A stretch of DNA of 64,000 nucleotides from Bacteroidota bacterium (GTDB lineage Bacteria; Bacteroidota; Bacteroidia; UKL13-3). Position numbers and translations under genes: made by a program. The stretch spans positions 62,001 to 126,000 of the forward strand of contig CANJUD010000003.1 of NCBI GenBank assembly GCA_947477885.1, in the 5' to 3' direction. The notes beneath the pieces were generated by a model that saw nothing but the letters and a program-made list of their open reading frames with translations, ran no database searches and was not told the DNA's origin. Shown in pieces: positions 20,252 to 47,757 of the stretch (position 1 is its first letter; each line of letters opens with the position of its first letter).

Positions 20252-20791
20252 TTAATCTCTGGTGTATTGTTGTCTTTTGGTTACATCTATGCGTTGCTCA
20301 AGAGCAAGCGGCTCCACTAATTTATCTTTACCATATATAAAGTTTTCGCGGTTGTATTCTGTTGGGGTAATTCTGTCTGTCAAAAATATTGCTTCTTTGG
20401 GGCAGGCTTCTTCGCATAATCCACAAAAAATGCAACGCAGCATATTGATTTCATAAACGGCAGCATATTTCTCTTCGCGAAATTTCATTTCCTCGCCGGG
20501 CTTTCTTTCAGCGGCTACCATAGTGATTGCTTCTGCGGGGCAGGCCACAGCACAAAGACCACAAGCGGTGCAGTTTTCGCGTCCCATCTCGTCACGCTTA
20601 AGAACGTGCATACCTCTATATACAGGGGCGAACGGACGCTTTTGCTCAGGGTACTTAACCGTAGCAGCTTTCTTAAATAAATGACTAAAGGTAATGAACA
20701 TGCCTTTAATGATGGCAGGCAAATAAAGACGTTCCATCAGGGACATCTTTTTATTGACAACTACTTTGGATCTATTGGTTAGTGGCTGCAT
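20252..20791 (-). CDS. nuoI: NADH-quinone oxidoreductase subunit I
   Basis: Two 4Fe-4S cluster motifs, CTACGLCAVACPAEAI and CIFCGLCEEACPKEAI, identify the ferredoxin-like subunit carrying clusters N6a and N6b, which passes electrons toward the quinone site at the membrane. The ORF-track start (TTG 20836) includes the promoter itself; ATG at 20791 (MQPLTNRSKVVVNKK) is preferred and gives 179 residues. It is the first gene of this operon. NuoH, normally just upstream, is absent, so nuoA-H must lie elsewhere. Confidence 0.95.
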   Translation of the reverse strand: MQPLTNRSKVVVNKKMSLMERLYLPAIIKGMFITFSHLFKKAATVKYPEQKRPFAPVYRGMHVLKRDEMGRENCTACGLCAVACPAEAITMVAAERKPGEEMKFREEKYAAVYEINMLRCIFCGLCEEACPKEAIFLTDRITPTEYNRENFIYGKDKLVEPLALEQRIDVTKRQQYTRD

Positions 20792-20806
20792 GTTCTTTTC
20801 GGGCTG

Positions 20807-20836
20807 CGAAGTTAAGGGTACGATTGTAAATTGCAA
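20807..20836 (-). promoter_or_regulatory. promoter of nuoIJKLMN
   Basis: On the minus strand TTG (20836-20834), exactly 19 bases, then TAACTTCG (20814-20807), one mismatch from TAnnTTTG. The start site would fall near 20800, about ten bases before the ATG at 20791. Confidence 0.5.
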
Positions 20837-20999
20837 TTGTGAAATATATTAACAATTGAAAATGGACTTTGTGGATTGGATACTGCAAAAAATAACCCTC
20901 ACATTGCTGCAAGGGTTGCACAAATTTTCATACTTACATCAATCCTCGTAGGATTGCCGAACAGAGTTATATTCCTCCTAATATAGTTACATTTAGGAG

Positions 21000-22547
21000 C
21001 TATTTTACAAAATTTAGCTTCTTCCTAAGTAGATAGAAATCTTCCCCTGTTTGTCTGGTAAAATAAATATATCCGTCTTTTTCAAAATGCATCATATCAT
21101 TCTTATTCATATCAGACACTTCTTGCCTCAAAATGCTTTTTGAGCTTCTTCTTATGTCTAATATTACCCTAAAGTCATGCCTCCAATTCAAAGCTACAAT
21201 ATATAAATTATCATTATCTGTAGATGGTAGCATGTAAAAATAATGCGATCTAATAAAATCCTCAAGTGAATCTGAAGGTAATTTTTCGAATTGTTTATCT
21301 AGTACATATTTTACCTTACCATCAGAGCCATAAATAAGAGGCAATGAAGTAAAGAGTGTCATTTCCTTGCCATCATATATCTGAGTACCTCCTGATAGAA
21401 GGCTATAATAAAGATTTGTTTTTACAAAAGCCTCTGGGATATTTAATTTTGAAAAATTTACTAATTCAAGTTCTTTGGAAAATGGCGAAACCTTATAATA
21501 GGCATAAACCTGGTTTTTAAAATTATCTAAATTAACAGGGTCACAATATACTTGCATTTTGTACATTGTATCGCTAACGCATGTAAAATCGAAATTAAGA
21601 CTGCCATCAGTAAAGCAATCGGGCCTTTTTGCTGTATTTCTGAGCATGTAGTAACTAGCTTCCACATTGTATAAAGAGTCTAACCTTCTTATACAAATTC
21701 CAAATCTTTTATACGCTGATATGGAATCTACATACTCAGGGTATTCAACTTGATAAAAGACATGTATTTTCCCATCGAGCACATCAAAATTTATAGGGTA
21801 AATCTTGAGTTTACCCTGTTTGATAAATTTTATATACTTGTTATATTGCAACTGGTTATTCTTTTCTTGCTTTTTAATAATATTCTCAAAAAACGCAAAA
21901 TTTATTATATCATTTTCTTCCTGAGATAGTGAAATAACCTTTTTTATATATCCATCACGTAAATTAAGTACCGCCAATTTATTCAAGACTTGGTTAAAAG
22001 CAACTATATTTTTAGTGTTTAAAACTCTAATTTTACAAAAGGAATTTAAAACAAAGTTTTCATTTTCTTCCAGTAAAAGCGAATCAGTAGCATTTTGCAC
22101 ACTGGCTTTATTCCTATCTAAAAAATCATTCACCTCTTGATCATCTGCCAAATTAATATTAAGGATAACTTTACAATTATGTATCTCTGACAATGTGTGG
22201 TAGCCATTTGGTGACAGCAATTGGAAAATAGTATCATCATTAATAATTTCTATTTTTGAAAAATCCACTTTTTCCAAACCAAGTTTCTCCTGCAAATATG
22301 GGATCATTTCTTTTTTTCTCACTCCTGATAAAACCATTACAACATTCTGCTCTTTTTCTAAAATTATTTTTATATTAGAAAGACAATTTAGGCAAGAGCC
22401 CGCCTTGATGGCAATAACAGTATATTTCTTATCGCATGACAACCCCTTTTTAATAAAAGTATTGTTTATACCTTGTGTATTTGAGCTGTGATAGAAAAAA
22501 ACGGTTGCTATAACTATAACAACCGTTTTAATAAATTTAGCGGACAT
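21000..22547 (-). CDS. exported protein with CxxC thioredoxin-like N-domain
   Basis: Unrecognised family, 515 residues. After a signal peptide or N-terminal anchor (FIKTVVIVIATVFFYHSS), residues about 38-150 look thioredoxin/TlpA-like: KKYTVIAIKAGSCLNCLSNIKIILEKEQ, with C52-LN-C55 following a beta-strand. Residues about 170-515 are strand-rich (LNLRDGYIKKVISLS, VLDGKIHVFYQVEY, TLFTSLPLIYGSDGKVKYVLDKQF) and could be a beta-propeller. Its ATG overlaps the stop of the small Cys-rich gene upstream (TAATG), so the two are coupled. I infer a role in oxidising, exporting or sensing the two Cys-rich proteins; this is untested. Confidence 0.8.
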   Translation of the reverse strand: MSAKFIKTVVIVIATVFFYHSSNTQGINNTFIKKGLSCDKKYTVIAIKAGSCLNCLSNIKIILEKEQNVVMVLSGVRKKEMIPYLQEKLGLEKVDFSKIEIINDDTIFQLLSPNGYHTLSEIHNCKVILNINLADDQEVNDFLDRNKASVQNATDSLLLEENENFVLNSFCKIRVLNTKNIVAFNQVLNKLAVLNLRDGYIKKVISLSQEENDIINFAFFENIIKKQEKNNQLQYNKYIKFIKQGKLKIYPINFDVLDGKIHVFYQVEYPEYVDSISAYKRFGICIRRLDSLYNVEASYYMLRNTAKRPDCFTDGSLNFDFTCVSDTMYKMQVYCDPVNLDNFKNQVYAYYKVSPFSKELELVNFSKLNIPEAFVKTNLYYSLLSGGTQIYDGKEMTLFTSLPLIYGSDGKVKYVLDKQFEKLPSDSLEDFIRSHYFYMLPSTDNDNLYIVALNWRHDFRVILDIRRSSKSILRQEVSDMNKNDMMHFEKDGYIYFTRQTGEDFYLLRKKLNFVK

Positions 22548-22939
22548 TAGTTTGCACAGTCGGTATTAATGGTAATTACATTTCCTACTTTTCTTGCACA
22601 TTCCCAACTATTTGAATTTTTACATGCGTAATAGGTTGACCCCATAGGTTCAATCACTTCTATAAACGGACCACAAGTAATAGTTGTGCCTCCACCGGAA
22701 GGGGCACAGGCAACTTTCGTGTAATAAATAGGAGGTACTGGATTGTAAGGATTTAATATAGGCAGACCACTAAAATTGTAATGAACCTCTCCGCTGGGTA
22801 AAGTAGCTTCAGTAAAAGGGTTTTGTAGTTCATAGTTAGCGTCCGCTTTTATTAAATAAAGTTGTGCTGTCTGGCAAAAAGCTGTTTTGCTGAGAGATAT
22901 AAATATAAAAGCCAATAGTATTACTTTGAAATTTTTCAT
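22547..22939 (-). CDS. small Cys-rich exported protein A
   Basis: The 130-residue product has a clear signal peptide (MKNFKVILLAFIFISLSKTAFCQ) and a mature domain of about 107 residues with five cysteines. The C-terminal part reads ITCGPFIEVIEPMGSTYYACKNSNSWECARKVGNVITI. The neighbouring gene B shares TCGP...CKNSN...C..RKV, so the two are paralogues. Function is unknown. It lies 12 bp after gene B and overlaps the CxxC protein gene by one base, so the three form one operon. Confidence 0.8.
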   Translation of the reverse strand: MKNFKVILLAFIFISLSKTAFCQTAQLYLIKADANYELQNPFTEATLPSGEVHYNFSGLPILNPYNPVPPIYYTKVACAPSGGGTTITCGPFIEVIEPMGSTYYACKNSNSWECARKVGNVITINTDCAN

Positions 22940-22951
22940 AAGATATATAAA

Positions 22952-23338
22952 TTAAAGTGAATCTTTTAGGATAATTATTACAGTGGAGTCAGATTGAACT
23001 TTTCTACTAGAACAAACTAGGTTGTTTGAGTTTTTGCACGTCCACAATTTACCACCAGTAGAACTACTCTTGTCATCTCTGGGACCACATGTATTACCAT
23101 TTCCACATCCAGCAGGTTGTATTGGGTCACTTGGATCTACAGGAGGAGTTGAAACTAACACCAAAGTATAAGGACCATTACAAATATATGATTCTGAACC
23201 ATCTGGGTTCAAGACAACTTGCATGGGAACTGTACAATTTATTTTTTTTAATTGAGTTGCATTTACTTCCTGAATATATATTCCGGAAATAACCTCTTGT
23301 GCCACTCCCTGCTTCACAAAACTTAATAATACAAGCAC
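22952..23338 (-). CDS. small Cys-rich exported protein B
   Basis: From the GTG at 23338 the ORF gives 128 residues, with six cysteines in the mature part and GNTCGPRDDKSSS ... LWTCKNSNNLVCSSRKVQ near the end, paralogous to protein A. The called start leaves only MLVLLSFVKQGVAQ as leader, with no basic n-region. The frame stays open upstream to 23377 and reads NLKKILKILKLSLV, a perfect n-region, but contains no ATG, GTG or TTG. Either an unusual initiator (ATA is present twice) is used, or the start has been lost and GTG gives a weakened signal. Function unknown. Confidence 0.7.
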   Translation of the reverse strand: MLVLLSFVKQGVAQEVISGIYIQEVNATQLKKINCTVPMQVVLNPDGSESYICNGPYTLVLVSTPPVDPSDPIQPAGCGNGNTCGPRDDKSSSTGGKLWTCKNSNNLVCSSRKVQSDSTVIIILKDSL

Positions 23339-23972
23339 AAGGCTTAATTTTAATATTTTTAATATTTTTTTAAATTTTAAATGTGATTGTCTTTGTTAAC
23401 TTACACCCATTTTCTTCAAAGCGAAATAAGGCTAAAACTTTTAATTTTTCATAGGCCCGTCTCCTTTCTTTTTAAAATATTGGCACAAAGAAATTTTGCA
23501 AAAGGGCTTTTCAGCAGTAATGAGGATAACAAGAAATGAAAGTAAAACGAGTAAAAAAATCCGTAACCCAGGGCTATAATTGGGGGGGGCAAACACCCCC
23601 TAAAAAAGGTTTTAAAAGCAATAGATGCGTTTGTAGGCATATGGCTTAAGTTTTAAATCAAATTTGAAACATAAATACTAAGAGGTAAAACGATGCAATG
23701 CAAATTTATTTTTTAAAATGTGCAAATTGTTTGAATGTGAATTTTATGGATAACGTTATTTGCTAGTAGAATGCTGATTGAGGCAAATATTATAATATAT
23801 AAAAAATGTTATTTGTGTTTTTTTAGGACGAATTAAGAATTTCGCAAAAGTCAAATTGGTTTTTTTTAAAGTATTGATCTAGTCAAAATACTCTCCATAC
23901 ATCATGCTATAATTATATACCCCTGATTTACAGCTTAAAAAAACTATTTTGAAAAAGATTTGCTTTTGTTGC
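23339..23972. other. gene-poor stretch upstream of the Cys-rich operon
   Basis: These 630 bases hold no long gene. I see an A/T-rich segment covering the possible n-region of protein B, a run of eight G followed by a C5 run that can fold as a hairpin (gggggtgtttgccccc, minus strand), and a short basic ORF on the plus strand (separate entry). The 63-residue minus-strand ORF at 23449 has no RBS, no signal and an implausible composition. No promoter for the operon is obvious. Confidence 0.6.
23536..23649 (+). CDS. possible 37-residue basic peptide
   Basis: ATG at 23536 opens MKVKRVKKSVTQGYNWGGQT and ends KGFKSNRCVCRHMA before TAA. A weak purine-rich site (gaggat) is about ten bases upstream. 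It is strongly basic with a CVC motif and spans the G8 run, so one G more or less would destroy it. It is too short for the ORF track. Its position beside Cys-rich secreted proteins makes it worth a look, but it may be chance. Confidence 0.22.
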   Translation: MKVKRVKKSVTQGYNWGGQTPPKKGFKSNRCVCRHMA

Positions 23973-24001
23973 TTGTAATTTCAAAAAAAAAATTAATTTC
24001 G
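23973..24001 (+). promoter_or_regulatory. promoter candidate for the DUF2795 gene
   Basis: TTG at 23973-23975, 18 bases, then TAATTTCG at 23994-24001, one mismatch from TAnnTTTG. It gives a leader of about 20-25 bases that includes an AAGGAG site. Confidence 0.45.
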
Positions 24002-24029
24002 CGGGAAATTTAAAAGGAGACAAAAGACT

Positions 24030-24251
24030 ATGTATTGGACACTCGAATTAGCATCATATCTGGACGACGCCCCATGGCCAGCCACTAAAGACGAATTAAT
24101 TGACTACGCCATCCGCAGCGGAGCACCACTTGAAGCAATAGAAAACTTGCAAGAGCTAGAAGACGATGGTGAGCCATTTGAAAGCATGGAAGAAGTTTGG
24201 CCCGATTACCCATCGGACGACGATTACTTCTATAACGCAGACGAACTGTAA
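24030..24251 (+). CDS. DUF2795 domain protein
   Basis: The 73-residue acidic protein (MYWTLELASYLDDAPWPATKDELIDYAIRSG ... PDYPSDDDYFYNADEL) matches the small DUF2795 family, in which a four-residue 'WPATKDEL' turn and 'A..GAP' are conserved. Function is not known. It is unusual here in having a true Shine-Dalgarno sequence (aaaaggagac, about 9 bases before ATG), and it is a single-gene unit with its own promoter and a strong terminator. That suggests high, constant expression. Confidence 0.85.
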   Translation: MYWTLELASYLDDAPWPATKDELIDYAIRSGAPLEAIENLQELEDDGEPFESMEEVWPDYPSDDDYFYNADEL

Positions 24252-24279
24252 GAAAATTTCTTATCTAAAATAATTACTG

Positions 24280-24305
24280 AAGCCACTTAACCGTGGCTTT
24301 TTTTA
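24280..24305 (+). terminator. rho-independent terminator
   Basis: aagccac and gtggctt pair around ttaacc and are followed by a T-run. It lies 28 bases past the DUF2795 stop. Confidence 0.9.
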
Positions 24306-24345
24306 TTGAATGAGTTGAAGAAGTGTGATTGAATGATTGAGCCAA

Positions 24346-24690
24346 TTATAATATATCCAAGATTAACTCAGGTGGACGAGCAATCACTGCCTTGTCTCCA
24401 ACAACAACGATAGGTCTTTCAATCAGAACAGGATTCTCAACCATCAAATTAATCAAATCAGCTTCTGATAATTTTTTGCCTTTGTAGGGTTTAAATGCAT
24501 CCTCGCCTGTTCTAATAATTTCAAGTGGTTTTTTGCCTAACATTTTAAGCAAATTTTTGATGGTGCTAATTGAGGGCGGCGTTTTCAAATATTCTACCAT
24601 TTCAAATTCTAGCTTCTGCTCATTTAAAAGGGTACACGCTCCGCGGCTTTTGCTGCAGCGAGGGTTATGATATATAGTTATCTTTTTCAT
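24346..24690 (-). CDS. arsC: ArsC-family reductase (glutaredoxin-type)
   Basis: The 114-residue protein begins MKKITIYHNPRCSKSRGACTLL with the single catalytic Cys12, and carries VEYLKTPPS, EIIRTGEDAFK and NPVLIERPIVVVGDKAVIARPPE, all hallmarks of the glutaredoxin-coupled arsenate reductase family. In E. coli ArsC the Arg60/94/107 triad binds arsenate; here the IRTGE and ERPI arginines and the Arg before PPE match. There is no ars operon around it, so a role as an orphan redox enzyme (YffB/Spx-like relative) is possible. Confidence 0.85.
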   Translation of the reverse strand: MKKITIYHNPRCSKSRGACTLLNEQKLEFEMVEYLKTPPSISTIKNLLKMLGKKPLEIIRTGEDAFKPYKGKKLSEADLINLMVENPVLIERPIVVVGDKAVIARPPELILDIL

Positions 24691-35867: not shown

Positions 35868-36392
35868 TTACTGCGAGCTACCTATCACAAGCTTTTGAAA
35901 TTTCTCTTCGTTGTTCCTGTTCACAATAGTGATATACATGCCACTAGGTAGGTACGACAAATCGGGCAAGTCGAACACATCTTGTTGCGCGGCGGTCTGA
36001 ATATAAAATTTATAACGTATCCGTCCAAAAATATCCATCACATAAAAATAGGCTGCATTATTTTCTATCTGTTTAAATTTGATGAATAATTTAAAAGCTG
36101 CACCGTTGTTAAACAGTGGATTGGGATAAAAGAAATAAGCAAAGTTATCGCACACACCATCCTGCCATATGGTTGAGTAAACTCCGTATTGATGCTCGGC
36201 TACACAACTGCTAAAATAAGTTTTGCCGCAGGCACAAACGGGCACAAACGAAAAAGCACTGTGGTCGCAGCCTTGGTAGTAGGGATCCATACGGGATGAA
36301 TCTACACATCCATACGGGGTAGTTGTAACTTGACTGCTAGCCCAATAGGGTAGCAGCAGCCATAAATATATAAAAGCTTTGGATCGCAACAT
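35868..36392 (-). CDS. secreted Kazal-like protein with T9SS sorting domain
   Basis: ATG at 36392 (MLRSKAFIYLWLLLPYWASSQ) gives a good signal peptide; the ORF-track start at 36431 overlaps the divergent promoter. Residues about 25-85 have eight Cys including PVCACGKTYFSSCVAEHQYGVYSTIWQDGVC, a Kazal-type inhibitor pattern (PVCG.DG.TY.N.C.A...GV......G.C). The C-terminal third, FYPNPLFNNGAAFKLF ... SGMYITIVNRNNEEKFQKLVIGSS, is a T9SS type A domain. A secreted protease inhibitor is inferred. Confidence 0.78.
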   Translation of the reverse strand: MLRSKAFIYLWLLLPYWASSQVTTTPYGCVDSSRMDPYYQGCDHSAFSFVPVCACGKTYFSSCVAEHQYGVYSTIWQDGVCDNFAYFFYPNPLFNNGAAFKLFIKFKQIENNAAYFYVMDIFGRIRYKFYIQTAAQQDVFDLPDLSYLPSGMYITIVNRNNEEKFQKLVIGSSQ

Positions 36393-36438
36393 TTTTCTGT
36401 TTTGCAAAATTAAGGCAATTCGCTTACCCAAATCATCT

Positions 36439-41186: not shown

Positions 41187-42026
41187 ATGAAAAAAATATA
41201 CTTCACACTCATCGCCTGTTTTTTATTCCCTTTGGCTCATTATGCCCAAACAAAAAACGCCCTCGCTTTCGACAATATAAATGGCAAAGTAAAAACCCTT
41301 ACTCAAAAAGTATATGTTGGCGTGCTAAAAGGTAGGAATATCGAAAGAGGCTCTGTGCTCAATACAGAAATATATACCTACAACGAAAAAGGAAATGTAA
41401 CCGAAATGAATTATTGCAATGCCGATAGCAGTGTAAAAAGTAAAATTATATATAAATACGACCTACAAGGCCACCTAGCTGAGGTCACAAAGTATAATAG
41501 TGAAGGTGAACAAAAATCGAGAGAGACATTTAGCTATGATGCAAGCGGGAACAAGTCGGGAGGTAGTTATTATAAAGCCGATAATACCTTGTCCTATACC
41601 CTAAAATTTATATATGATGCCAAAGGTAATATGATAGAACTAACTGAGAACAGTGCCGAAAACAAACTAAATTACAAACTCAAATTTAAGTATGATATAA
41701 AAAACAATATGATTGAGCGGACCAAGTATAAAGCTGATGGCACACTAGCCAGCAAGCAAACCAATAAATATGATGATAAAGGCAATAAAACGGAATACTG
41801 TAGCTACGGAGCCGACGGTAAGCTCACCCTCAAATCAACCTTTAAATATGACGATAGTAACAACCAAATAGAAATGGTAAACTACAATGCCACCGGTGCA
41901 GTAGAGGTAAAAGAAAACGACCGATACGAAGATGTGGATACTACAGTCAACTGGCTCAAAAAAACCGTATTCGAAAACGATAAGCCCACCAAAATTACTG
42001 ATAGAGTACTTGTGTATTATAAGTAA
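41187..42026 (+). CDS. exported YD-repeat-like protein, copy 1
   Basis: The 279-residue product has a signal peptide (MKKIYFTLIACFLFPLAHYAQ) followed by about eight units of 20-25 residues of the form YxYDxxGNxxExxxYxxDGxL (KYDIKNNMIERTKYKADGTL, KYDDKGNKTEYCSYGADGKL), ending KENDRYEDVDTTVNWLKKTVFENDKPTKITDRVLVYYK. The repeats resemble YD/RHS repeats and form a beta-wrap. There is no toxin domain, so it is a short exported YD-like protein. Preceded by TATATTTG at 41174-41181, five bases before the ATG: near-leaderless. Confidence 0.85.
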   Translation: MKKIYFTLIACFLFPLAHYAQTKNALAFDNINGKVKTLTQKVYVGVLKGRNIERGSVLNTEIYTYNEKGNVTEMNYCNADSSVKSKIIYKYDLQGHLAEVTKYNSEGEQKSRETFSYDASGNKSGGSYYKADNTLSYTLKFIYDAKGNMIELTENSAENKLNYKLKFKYDIKNNMIERTKYKADGTLASKQTNKYDDKGNKTEYCSYGADGKLTLKSTFKYDDSNNQIEMVNYNATGAVEVKENDRYEDVDTTVNWLKKTVFENDKPTKITDRVLVYYK

Positions 42027-42042
42027 TAAATATTCTAAATCC

Positions 42043-42783
42043 AATGAAATATATATAATACTTATTCAATTTTTTATTTTCACACATTTCAATTATGCCC
42101 AAACAAAAAGTACTTTAACCACCGATCAAATAAAAGGCAAAGTAAAAACGCTAACCCAAAGCATATACACGGCTGAGCTAAAAAATGGCAAGCCGGAAAA
42201 ATCCAACAAGCTAAGTACCGAAAAATATAGTTACGATGAGCAAGGCAATGTTACAGAGCTATACAATATAAATGCCGATACCAGTGTGATATCAATTAAA
42301 AACTATTCTTATAATGAGAGTGGGCAGGTAACGGAGGTAAGCCAGTTTAAATCAGGAGGCGATATGAGCAATAAAGATATTCCAATGGAATCTGAATTGC
42401 AAGCAATAGAAGTATATGTTTATGATACCAAAGGTAATTTAATAGAAAAAAAGTATAATTCTTTGTTGGGTAATTTATCACATTCAGTAAAATATATATA
42501 CGATGCCCAGGGAAATATGATAGCACAAAATGAATATAATGCAGAGGGTAAATTAATGGATAAAATCAAATTCTATTTTGATATAAAAGGAAATATTAAT
42601 GAGAAAGCTAGACACGATAATGATAGCAACCTGGTGGACAAACAAAATGCAGCAGGAGCTTTGCAACTAAAAGAAACTTGCAAATATGAAAATGATGACA
42701 TCGCGGGTAACTGGCAAAAGGAAACTATATATGAAAGTGATAAGGTGATTAAGATAACAGAGTGGGTGTTTGTGTATTATTAA
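42043..42783 (+). pseudogene. YD-repeat-like protein, copy 2, start lost
   Basis: A tandem paralogue of the preceding gene. In the main frame it reads EIYIILIQFFIFTHFNYAQTKSTLTTDQIKGKVKTLTQ, the same signal and N-terminus as copy 1 (NALAFDNINGKVKTLTQ), but ATG at 42043 is out of frame: reading it gives MKYI then stop. A one- or two-base indel in aaatatatataata separates them. The ORF-track start at 41932 lies within copy 1 in another frame. Near the end DSNLVDKQ joins directly to NAAGALQLKETCKYE, so about two repeat units are missing compared with copy 1. Alternatives are slippage-controlled expression or a non-ATG start. Confidence 0.7.
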
Positions 42784-43605: not shown

Positions 43606-46600
43606 CTATTGCCTCACAAATCTTAGCTTCTCCACCGTTCCCTCACGCTCAAGCATCATCATATATACTCCTGCAGGTAGCTCTTTCACAGGCAGTGTAT
43701 GCAGTTGTGTTCCTGCTGCCAGTTGTTCGTTAAATACCGTTTTGCCCTGCATGTCTATCACCGTTATTTTGGTAGTTCCTTCGCTGGGGGGCATCTCTAT
43801 ATTTAATAGTTCATCGGTAGGGTTGGGGTAAAGTTTGGATGTGGTAAGGGTTTCCGTTTTAAAGTTTTCTGCAATGCTTGGTGCAAGACCACCACCTGTA
43901 GATTGGCATCCACCGTTTTGTTGAGTGGCAAGTGTACCATATAGTTTGAAATTAGATGATACTTGTGTGTTTGCATTAAGATAGCTTATATTTAATTTGC
44001 CGTAATAGTAATTATATGTAATTCCATTGGGCAGTGCATAAGCTCCGCCATTAATTCGGTCAAAATAATTATAGTTGCATTGAGAAGAAGACATATTATT
44101 TGAATTTGAAATACTACCATTGATATAAACATTACCTGTCATGATAAAATCATTATAACCATCTTTTAGGTTCAAATAATTTATATTGTATAAGCCGAAT
44201 GGCGACTCTTTAAAAATATTATATCCTCCATAATCAGAAGTGTTATGTAAGGTAGTGGAGCTAAGATTTAAATTAGCATAATCAATATCAATGTTTGTAT
44301 TAGTAAATTTATTGCAGCCCATGGTAACTATGAATGGGTATGATGATGATGCCACGATATCAATATCCGATGCTATAATATTGTTGTTTTTTAATAGCAG
44401 TAAAGCATTTATGTTGCCATGATAATCGATCCCTAATGTATTATCTTTAAAACGACAACCTTGTATGGTAGAAGATAAGGTAATCCAATTAGCCTTGATG
44501 CCTTTTACATTTTCCTTAAAGATACAATTATTAAGAGTAAATCCTGCGTCATGAATATACATCGCCAGATTGTTATTATAAAATTCATTCCTGTAAAAAG
44601 AAGGAGTATTAAGGGCATAGTCGACAGAAAAATCTAATGCGGTGTTAGCATAATAAAATTTAGATTGGTCTATGTGTATTTGATTGTCAATTTGATTATA
44701 AAACTTTAAGCCTACCCAGTTATTATTTGTATTGTTACTTGATGGTTTAAATATGCCGTTGTCAAAATATACTGGAGAATAGATATCGAATTTTGCCCCA
44801 GTATTTGCTACAACTATTGCACCATCAACTTTAAACATACCTAGTGTATTTGGAAAAGTAACAGCACCGCTCACTTCTAGTTTTGTTTCATTTTTTGTAC
44901 TAGTAAATTCAATTGAAGATCCACTTGCAGCGCCAATCGTAAAATTGCCATCCGTATTGTTAAATATAACTTTACCCGAACCATTGTGTTTAAAAACGGC
45001 ATTATTTGACAAATTCAACTGACCTTTTATTTCAATACTAGCATTATCTTCAAGATAGATATTTGCTCCTGGATCAACAAATAAAGTAGCACCTTTTTCA
45101 ATGATTAATTTACTACCCCAATATAGGTATAAACTGCTACCACTATGTAGGTATAAATTACTGCCTTCTCTTATATAAACTGTTCCTTTGTTGTTTGTAG
45201 GTGTATTATTATCTCCAATTATAAAACTGCCTCCACTATTTATTTCTACCTCGCTACCGCAGTCGGAGGTATATAGGTTGAAATAATTTCCGACAAAATT
45301 TTGCTCGCTACTTTTATTCCAATAATCTCCACTAATTTTATAATTAACCCAGTCATTTATATTAACTTGAAGTGCACCATTCTTGTTAACTTGAATGTCG
45401 TTTAAAATATGTCTAAAATCAGTTCCAAAATTATAAGAATTGCATGTTTGCGTATAGCTAATATCATCTTGATCCATATAACTAACAGAAGTTGGCAATT
45501 GGCTCAATTGGTTGCTAGAACGACGAAGTTCTGAAATTAACCAGTTTATATTTGAATAGGTCATTTGAACATGCAATTGACTGTTGTCTTCACCCTGCTG
45601 GCTTGGGGCATAATATGCATCAAACACATATTTGTCTTTGTTTGGATGGTTTGAATTTGAAATTTCACCTTTTGCCGAAGCGAATAAATCATTTGTCGTC
45701 ATACCTAAACCACTATTTGTTGGAATAAAGCAAGTTTTGGAAAAATATGTTTCTGGTGAGTTTAATTTTAAATGTTTGGAAATTATTGTAGTAATATTTA
45801 AAGCCTTTAAAGCATCGGTCATCCCACCAGGTGCATTGTCATAGCCTAAATTTAAACTATTATCCCAATCTGTTTCAACTTTATTATTCCATTCATTTGC
45901 GTCTCCCATAAATATCCTGTAATTCCCACTGCCAGAATTGGATGTTGCTTTCATTTCTGCTTTAATAGCCCCTCCATTGTATATTACAGCCGGAATATAT
46001 AATAACGTACGCCATAGGCCTACTCCAACATTTTTCAACCAATTATCTTGCCCTGACCAACCTTTTTCTAGCCATTTTGTTGTGTAGGGGACTTTCATGT
46101 CGGCAAGGATATCTTTATTTCCAATCCCATTTTTTTTCCCAATTCCACTGCCATTGCTTACTGCTACTTTCCTAATATATTTTGGGTAGCTTCCCAAATT
46201 ATTTACCAAATCATTCATAAAATCAATTCTGTATTGATGCGGTCCATAGATTGCACCATTAGATTGTGTGATGCCTTCAGAAGAATTATTGAGTAATTGG
46301 AATGTAGCTGGTCTAGTGAGTTTATGCTCATACGTAAATTTAGCGTTTTCGAATAAATTATCAGTATTATGATTTGCAAAATATTGCATAAATAATTGCA
46401 TACTGATCGAGATATTTGCACCTTTGTGAGGTGAGTCGAAATAGATAGATGAACGGACGCAATGCTTCATATTCTTGGTCTCCATATAACTAAGTGCATA
46501 TCTTGTTACTTGCCCACCCATACTTGCCCCAAGAACTACTAATTCTTCCTTAGAACATTTGTGGGCATTGATATAGTTTATTAATTCTACCAATACCATA

Positions 46601-47757
46601 GCATTTGCCTGCATATAAGTAGCCCCATCTTTAAAATCTAGAAATATTATATCGTAACCTTCACTATGCAATTTTTCTATCATTGTGGGGCCTAGCTGGA
46701 ATTCGAGCCTTCTGGGACCCTCATCATCTAGTTCTGTTTGTTTTGCATTTATAATTCCATCTACCCATCCAGTTGCAATATCTATATATCCTAATCCGCC
46801 GCATTTCCCATCTATGCAGGGACGGTCAGTTGCACCATGAGGCCTGTCAGATGTGCCGAAATCAACCCCGTCTACAAATATTAATGGTTTTCTGTAACAT
46901 CCTGAATTATTTCCTTTGCCCATTGTGTATACATATAGTCCTTCTGCGTATTGCCCATTAAATGGTATTGAAGCTTTTATATCAGCATAGTGAGGATTAA
47001 ATGGCAGATTATTTATAGGTTGCCCAATTTTTATTATAATCGGGCAATTTAATTTCATCTCACTTGCATGATCATATATTTTTATATCGCCATCAAATAC
47101 ACCATTATTTGGAAAAGTAATAGTTAAAGTAGTTCCAAATGTAATATCTCGATATCCTTGACCATCGCCAAAGTCAATTTGAATTTTACTCATATCCGAC
47201 GGGGTATTTGTCAAAAAAAATTCTTGACCAAAATAAAAACTAACAGTATTATTGTTTCCCATAGAATAAAAATAGGGAGTGGCCATAAATATTCTTCCTT
47301 CGTCATAAGGACTAGAATTTCTTCCGGCCACATCTTCTAAATATCCATTTAAGGTATCTAATAAATGAGAAGTTATGGCATTGTCCTTGATGTAGTTATA
47401 CCGGTAGTCGTAGAATACAACTGGGTTAACTCCCTGCAGGTCCAATGAGCTAGCCCATTTATTAAGTGAATCAAAAGAAGTTACTCGCCCAGAATCTAAA
47501 TACATTTCATTTAGTTTGCCATGTAGGTATCCCCGTTTGCTGAAATCAGCTACTCTATCGTTAATACCATCAAAATCTTCGATAGAAATTGGATGTATAG
47601 TTTTGTCGAATAAAATTCCAGAGCTTATATCGTTTTTATTTAAGTGAGACATCATATTTGATAGTTCTTTTTTTGCCATCATCAAAGTGTCTACTTGGGC
47701 TTCAGATTGTTGTCCAAATAAGATAGCCATTATTATTGTAATTATAATCTTTTTCAT
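43606..47757 (-). CDS. giant T9SS protein: lipase-like domain plus beta-helix
   Basis: The 1383-residue product has a signal peptide (MKKIIITIIMAILFGQQSEAQ). Residues about 290-640 are an alpha/beta-hydrolase of lipase/PGAP1 type: PLIFVDGVDFGTSDRP, YDIIFLDFKDGATYMQ, then the nucleophile elbow VVLGASMGGQVTRYALSY and FDSPHKGANI. From about 880 a repetitive Asn/Gly-rich region (LYLHSGSSLYLYWGSKLIIEKGATLFVDPGANIYLEDNAS) looks like a right-handed beta-helix. The C-terminal T9SS domain is KLYPNPTDELLNIEMPP ... GVYMMMLEREGTVEKLRFVRQ. It should be a cell-surface lipase/esterase; substrate unknown. Confidence 0.85.
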   Translation of the reverse strand: MKKIIITIIMAILFGQQSEAQVDTLMMAKKELSNMMSHLNKNDISSGILFDKTIHPISIEDFDGINDRVADFSKRGYLHGKLNEMYLDSGRVTSFDSLNKWASSLDLQGVNPVVFYDYRYNYIKDNAITSHLLDTLNGYLEDVAGRNSSPYDEGRIFMATPYFYSMGNNNTVSFYFGQEFFLTNTPSDMSKIQIDFGDGQGYRDITFGTTLTITFPNNGVFDGDIKIYDHASEMKLNCPIIIKIGQPINNLPFNPHYADIKASIPFNGQYAEGLYVYTMGKGNNSGCYRKPLIFVDGVDFGTSDRPHGATDRPCIDGKCGGLGYIDIATGWVDGIINAKQTELDDEGPRRLEFQLGPTMIEKLHSEGYDIIFLDFKDGATYMQANAMVLVELINYINAHKCSKEELVVLGASMGGQVTRYALSYMETKNMKHCVRSSIYFDSPHKGANISISMQLFMQYFANHNTDNLFENAKFTYEHKLTRPATFQLLNNSSEGITQSNGAIYGPHQYRIDFMNDLVNNLGSYPKYIRKVAVSNGSGIGKKNGIGNKDILADMKVPYTTKWLEKGWSGQDNWLKNVGVGLWRTLLYIPAVIYNGGAIKAEMKATSNSGSGNYRIFMGDANEWNNKVETDWDNSLNLGYDNAPGGMTDALKALNITTIISKHLKLNSPETYFSKTCFIPTNSGLGMTTNDLFASAKGEISNSNHPNKDKYVFDAYYAPSQQGEDNSQLHVQMTYSNINWLISELRRSSNQLSQLPTSVSYMDQDDISYTQTCNSYNFGTDFRHILNDIQVNKNGALQVNINDWVNYKISGDYWNKSSEQNFVGNYFNLYTSDCGSEVEINSGGSFIIGDNNTPTNNKGTVYIREGSNLYLHSGSSLYLYWGSKLIIEKGATLFVDPGANIYLEDNASIEIKGQLNLSNNAVFKHNGSGKVIFNNTDGNFTIGAASGSSIEFTSTKNETKLEVSGAVTFPNTLGMFKVDGAIVVANTGAKFDIYSPVYFDNGIFKPSSNNTNNNWVGLKFYNQIDNQIHIDQSKFYYANTALDFSVDYALNTPSFYRNEFYNNNLAMYIHDAGFTLNNCIFKENVKGIKANWITLSSTIQGCRFKDNTLGIDYHGNINALLLLKNNNIIASDIDIVASSSYPFIVTMGCNKFTNTNIDIDYANLNLSSTTLHNTSDYGGYNIFKESPFGLYNINYLNLKDGYNDFIMTGNVYINGSISNSNNMSSSQCNYNYFDRINGGAYALPNGITYNYYYGKLNISYLNANTQVSSNFKLYGTLATQQNGGCQSTGGGLAPSIAENFKTETLTTSKLYPNPTDELLNIEMPPSEGTTKITVIDMQGKTVFNEQLAAGTQLHTLPVKELPAGVYMMMLEREGTVEKLRFVRQ

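Follow-up and report, generated by a model that had tools for sequence, protein, structure and literature searches.

A lineage-specific three-gene operon in a Bacteroidota bacterium couples two small cysteine-rich proteins with a large CxxC protein

A 64,000-nucleotide stretch of Bacteroidota DNA (hereafter the window) carries a compact three-gene operon, in which two small proteins rich in cysteine are encoded ahead of a 515-residue protein with an early CxxC motif. The genes themselves, the homology of the small pair, the one-base overlap between two of the genes, one likely recurrence in a distant genome and the absence of the operon from two close relatives could be established directly. 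Our leading guess, tentative as it is, is that the large protein serves the small ones as their dedicated thiol-disulfide partner.

Gene organisation

The operon is flanked by nuoI on one side and by an ArsC-family gene on the other, and the locus comprises the following features:

20252-20836: nuoI, one flank of the operon
20894-20917, minus strand: terminator-like hairpin between the operon and nuoI, from a consensus scan
21000-22547, minus strand: large exported protein gene, ATG start, 515 residues, CLNC at residues 52-55
22547-22939, minus strand: second small exported cysteine-rich protein gene, ATG start, 130 residues, five mature cysteines
22598-22675, minus strand: conserved cysteine core of the second small protein, CGP-x8-G-x5-C-K-N-x5-C, from a pattern search
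22952-23338, minus strand: first small exported cysteine-rich protein gene, GTG start, 128 residues, six cysteines
23012-23089, minus strand: conserved cysteine core of the first small protein, from a pattern search
23404-23443, minus strand: 40-nt element immediately preceding the operon, with 97.5% identity to positions 74-113 of a stretch from a congener (L098; BLASTN E 1.8e-13)
24346-24690: ArsC-family gene, the other flank

The stop codon of the second small gene and the ATG of the 515-residue gene have one base in common (TAATG), and the coordinates of the two minus-strand genes (22547-22939 and 21000-22547) thereby confirm the overlap that a preliminary description of the locus had reported. 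The operon is probably transcribed separately from nuoI because of the hairpin at 20894-20917; sites of this type number 7 in the region compared with 1.7 expected in shuffles, each of them being a consensus match only.

All three proteins start with a signal-type hydrophobic segment as judged by eye, and we infer their export to the periplasm. The preliminary description had called the proteins secreted; by-eye inspection agrees with export, whereas release from the cell is without support, since a Pfam search found a type IX sorting domain (PF18962 or CHU_C) on none of the three.

Other proteins of the window do carry a type IX sorting domain. One is an exported protein (35868-36431, minus strand) with the domain at its C-terminus and a Kazal-type-like stretch recognised by eye (CACGKTYFSSC), for which Pfam gives no Kazal match; another is a type IX cargo of 1383 residues that contains a PGAP1-like alpha/beta hydrolase region (43606-47757, minus strand). 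In addition, two neighbouring open reading frames with overlapping coordinates (41187-42783, plus strand) encode similar repeat-rich exported proteins, whose repeats appear to be of the YD type by eye.

The pair of small proteins

The two small proteins are homologous, as judged by BLASTP (E 6e-8 for the pair) and by a profile made from the mature part of one protein, which gives the other 22.3 bits, a score not reached in 20,000 composition shuffles or in a further 20,000 with the cysteines fixed in place. The adjacency of two related exported proteins rich in cysteine, as first described, is thus upheld. Both share the core CGP-x8-G-x5-C-K-N-x5-C, and a degenerate DNA pattern of this core, which was built from these very sequences, has 2 matches in the window and none in 100 shuffles. 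The full motif of the pair reads TCGP-x14-CKNSN-x3-C-x(1-2)-RKV, with six cysteines past the signal peptide in the first protein and five in the second; the motif and the count of 5-6 cysteines as originally noted are corrected accordingly. The small proteins, with their conserved four-cysteine core, are probably disulfide-bonded.

The start of the first small gene is irregular. It is devoid of an ATG, and the signal read from the GTG is truncated, with the basic n-region missing; an in-frame ATA at 23365 or 23356 would complete the signal and lengthen the protein. In a congener, an ATG lies about 38 nt from an upstream element common to both genomes, which nearly matches the distance of the ATA at 23365. 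Initiation at ATA, decay of the start codon and an error in sequencing are all possible in this gene.

None of the three proteins matches a family above cut-off in Pfam or NCBIfam, none has a match in PADLOC, and PHROGs returned chance-level matches only, which answers for these four collections the earlier question of whether the small proteins belong to a named family. The first small protein has a weak Pfam match to the FLYWCH zinc finger (E 0.042, below cut-off), and the second has none at E values up to 10; a Pfam search at that same limit agrees with the earlier observation that both are devoid of an NVEALA motif.

The large protein and its CLNC segment

The 515-residue protein is encoded by a single-copy gene. 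Its family and order, sampled in 64 genomes, yielded no detectable relative, and none was convincing in 395 genomes of its class, where the lone match (L002) seems by eye to be a TonB-receptor frame and was taken as chance; viral contigs, plasmids and a pattern scan of 85,462 genomes yielded no relatives either. Moreover, no second operon of this kind passed a crude filter in about 394 kb taken from elsewhere in the same genome.

AlphaFold predictions made without an alignment reach a pLDDT of 36 for the whole protein and of 48 for residues 30-150, with values of 50-65 in the core of this segment, and the low-confidence model of the latter has the order strand, CxxC, helix, strand, helix; the remainder of the protein is strand-rich. 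Fold matches of the CLNC-segment model in the PDB (Foldseek) are generic alpha/beta folds, none of which has an E value below 0.001, and the matches listed include no thioredoxin. The Foldseek lists, which derive from low-confidence models, were left out as evidence. Searches of the protein against thioredoxin family models in Pfam and NCBIfam gave no match at E values up to 10. Of the thioredoxin-like CLNC motif originally proposed, the position of CLNC after a strand therefore agrees with the model of pLDDT 48, whereas the fold does not find agreement in the PDB matches, which are not thioredoxins. A propeller in the tail, for which structure prediction had been suggested as a check, is not borne out by the whole-protein model of pLDDT 36 or by Pfam, where propeller models including PF15869, PF17170 and PF13970 do not match, though a diverged propeller is possible. 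No lipobox was recognised by eye.

A probable second case in a distant genome

A profile of the small pair gave fourteen weak matches outside its own genome when run against the 395 class genomes, and a scan of 85,462 genomes with the core motif gave one in-context match, MAG JALRIQ010000042.1. The other thirteen profile matches, as well as those of another search, look like chance, and seven further matches of the motif scan were rejected as out-of-context frames.

The second case resides in the MAG 'Bacteroidia bacterium isolate QJ.21' (JALRIQ010000042.1, bases 990-2959; G232, L021/L025), where a complete open reading frame for an exported protein of 146 residues contains the core CGP-x8-G-x5-C-x-N-x5-C and is followed, 8 bp past its end, by an open reading frame for an exported protein of 506 residues with CNSC near residue 38. 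The 146-residue protein has a profile E value of 0.027 for one genome, which is not significant alone given that 395 were searched. Its mature part scores 15.0 bits, which none of 40,000 shuffles reaches, half of them keeping the cysteine positions, for a match that was picked from 395 genomes. Gene order, sizes, export signals and the early CxxC agree as well, none of which entered the search. Furthermore, a crude filter applied to about 394 kb from elsewhere in the window genome picked out 2 exported proteins of at least 300 residues with an early CxxC; such proteins are uncommon, and the occurrence of one beside the MAG relative is therefore unlikely to be due to chance. Hence, homology of the 146-residue protein with the small proteins of the window is, in our estimation, very probable, and the neighbourhood check advocated in the preliminary description came out in favour of the pairing: the single distant relative again precedes an exported CxxC protein.

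In both operons, the gene order runs from small exported proteins with the same four-cysteine core to a large one, likewise exported, whose CxxC lies early in the chain. On the other hand, the MAG has one small gene in place of two and CNSC in place of CLNC, and the large proteins do not align significantly: the best local score of the 515- and 506-residue proteins was equalled by 140 of 1000 shuffles, and a global comparison of their C-terminal parts gave p 0.04. No convincing relatives of the 506-residue protein were found. The pairing of small protein and CxxC protein probably recurs, and the similar pair in the MAG points to a module that is real, yet very rare and quick to change.

A variable site upstream of nuoI

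Among the family members examined, most carry nuoH either immediately upstream of nuoI or with a single gene in between, as judged from by-eye recognition of nuoH and its neighbours; this genus departs from that arrangement. Two congeners are 94-95% identical to the window genome in NuoI. Both lack the three-gene operon at the same site and carry unrelated genes instead, namely an Omp85-type and a polyketide-cyclase-like protein in the first (G033) and exported and barrel-like proteins in the second (G034). DNA identity with the congeners stops just upstream of nuoI, at about 20,860. Because the congeners carry other genes and identity ends at this point, the operon is a lineage-specific occupant of a variable site.

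In G034, identity resumes only in the 40-nt element, which there precedes another operon for exported proteins at this site; a second copy was absent from the stretches searched. The element is possibly a promoter, a leader or a recombination boundary. The nuo operon as such is split in this genus, and three species each have different DNA upstream of nuoI (window 20252-24690, L097 and L098).

Relation to NVEALA clusters

The preliminary description had drawn a parallel with NVEALA gene pairs, which proved apt. In the NVEALA loci examined, cysteine-containing exported peptides (PF14055) adjoin lipoproteins with six-bladed propellers (PF15869, PF17170 or PF13970), and six of these loci (L118, L119, L123, L125, L127 and L128) encode a separate CTSC or CSSC lipoprotein in addition. 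The CxxC lipoprotein of L128 has a weak match to Thioredoxin_8 (E 0.005, below cut-off) and is the only one tested with a match. Two loci have a CSSC lipoprotein gene ahead of one or two NVEALA peptide genes and a gene for a propeller-type lipoprotein, all in a single run (L119:914-3152 and L123:914-2800).

Both arrangements thus have short exported cysteine proteins, at times two in tandem, next to a large protein that is also exported, and both include a CxxC protein. They differ in that the NVEALA peptides comprise roughly 70-105 residues and the small proteins of the window about 130, and in that the CxxC motif belongs to a separate gene in several of the NVEALA clusters, whereas the window operon joins it with the strand-rich part in one polypeptide. 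In addition, the window operon lacks an NVEALA domain, a propeller match, a thioredoxin family match and, by eye, a lipobox, and a whole-genome search for PF14055 in the genome of the window gave no match. A profile of the CxxC lipoproteins of NVEALA clusters scores slightly above shuffles against the 506-residue MAG protein (0 of 100 shuffles reach the score) and weakly against the 515-residue protein (3 of 100), the alignment in the latter case lying outside the CxxC. Anchored tests that set the CLNC region against the CxxC proteins of L118, L119 and L128 and against the MAG protein remained at chance level. A literature search on NVEALA, DUF6520 and the propeller families retrieved, within the library covered, nothing on function and no paper on NVEALA clusters. 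The window operon resembles these clusters in its parts and lacks the features by which membership can be tested by sequence, while the kind itself is poorly described.

A precedent for a thioredoxin-like domain joined to a beta-propeller in one protein is human NHLRC2, as described in PMC6107167. No sequence relation between NHLRC2 and the 515-residue protein was detected.

Possible functions of the operon

As a dedicated thiol-disulfide partner, the large protein would belong to a lineage-specific cell-envelope operon in which two small exported proteins with a four-cysteine core are made together with it, their expression being translationally coupled to its own. Its N-terminal CxxC segment, which is probably thioredoxin-like, would form, reduce or isomerise the disulfides of the small proteins, while the strand-rich remainder would bind them. 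In such a case, a single fused protein may accomplish what NVEALA clusters do by separate genes, as the likeness in layout suggests. For the thioredoxin-like fold, the disulfides and the relation of enzyme and substrate, this is what we infer.

Alternatively, the small proteins may be ligands, either signals or antagonistic, with the large protein as receptor, display scaffold or immunity partner and its CxxC in a structural or minor role. Two duplicated and diverging small exported proteins next to one large, strand-rich exported protein would suit this explanation, as would the rapid turnover at the site among congeners and the dearth of relatives in the 64 family genomes; however, no bacteriocin, toxin or defence family is matched, and the early CxxC recurs in the MAG although other similarity is missing there, so that we consider ligands unlikely without discounting them. 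Even less probable in our view is metal binding (zinc, copper or iron) by the CxxC and the cysteine core, with the operon as an envelope metal-handling module. Several cysteines per small protein, the FLYWCH match of the first one at E 0.042 and the best matches of the CLNC region, which are to HMA-type domains at the chance level of E 1.1-1.9, point in this direction, but all the HMA and FLYWCH matches are below cut-off and no metal transporter or regulator adjoins the operon, the ArsC-family gene being about 1 kb off with mostly non-coding DNA in between. That the MAG similarity is due to chance and the operon an orphan of a single species without a wider module, as the sub-threshold profile score, the large proteins without demonstrable homology and the single case in 395 class genomes and in the 85,462-species pattern scan might imply, is improbable given the 15.0 bits beyond 40,000 shuffles, half of which keep the cysteine positions, and the independent agreement of the MAG in gene order, sizes, export signals and early CxxC.

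Returning to the large protein as thiol-disulfide partner, a more far-reaching and doubtful proposal is that the operon represents a new envelope system with an evolutionary origin apart from NVEALA clusters, in which one protein, with its CxxC and strand-rich parts fused, would process and retain dedicated cysteine-rich small proteins, and which would occur in Bacteroidia in scattered versions that diverge too fast for sequence searches to detect. With its three genes and its CxxC in the large partner, this compact version would constitute a simple system for asking whether disulfides in small proteins are the work of a partner protein.
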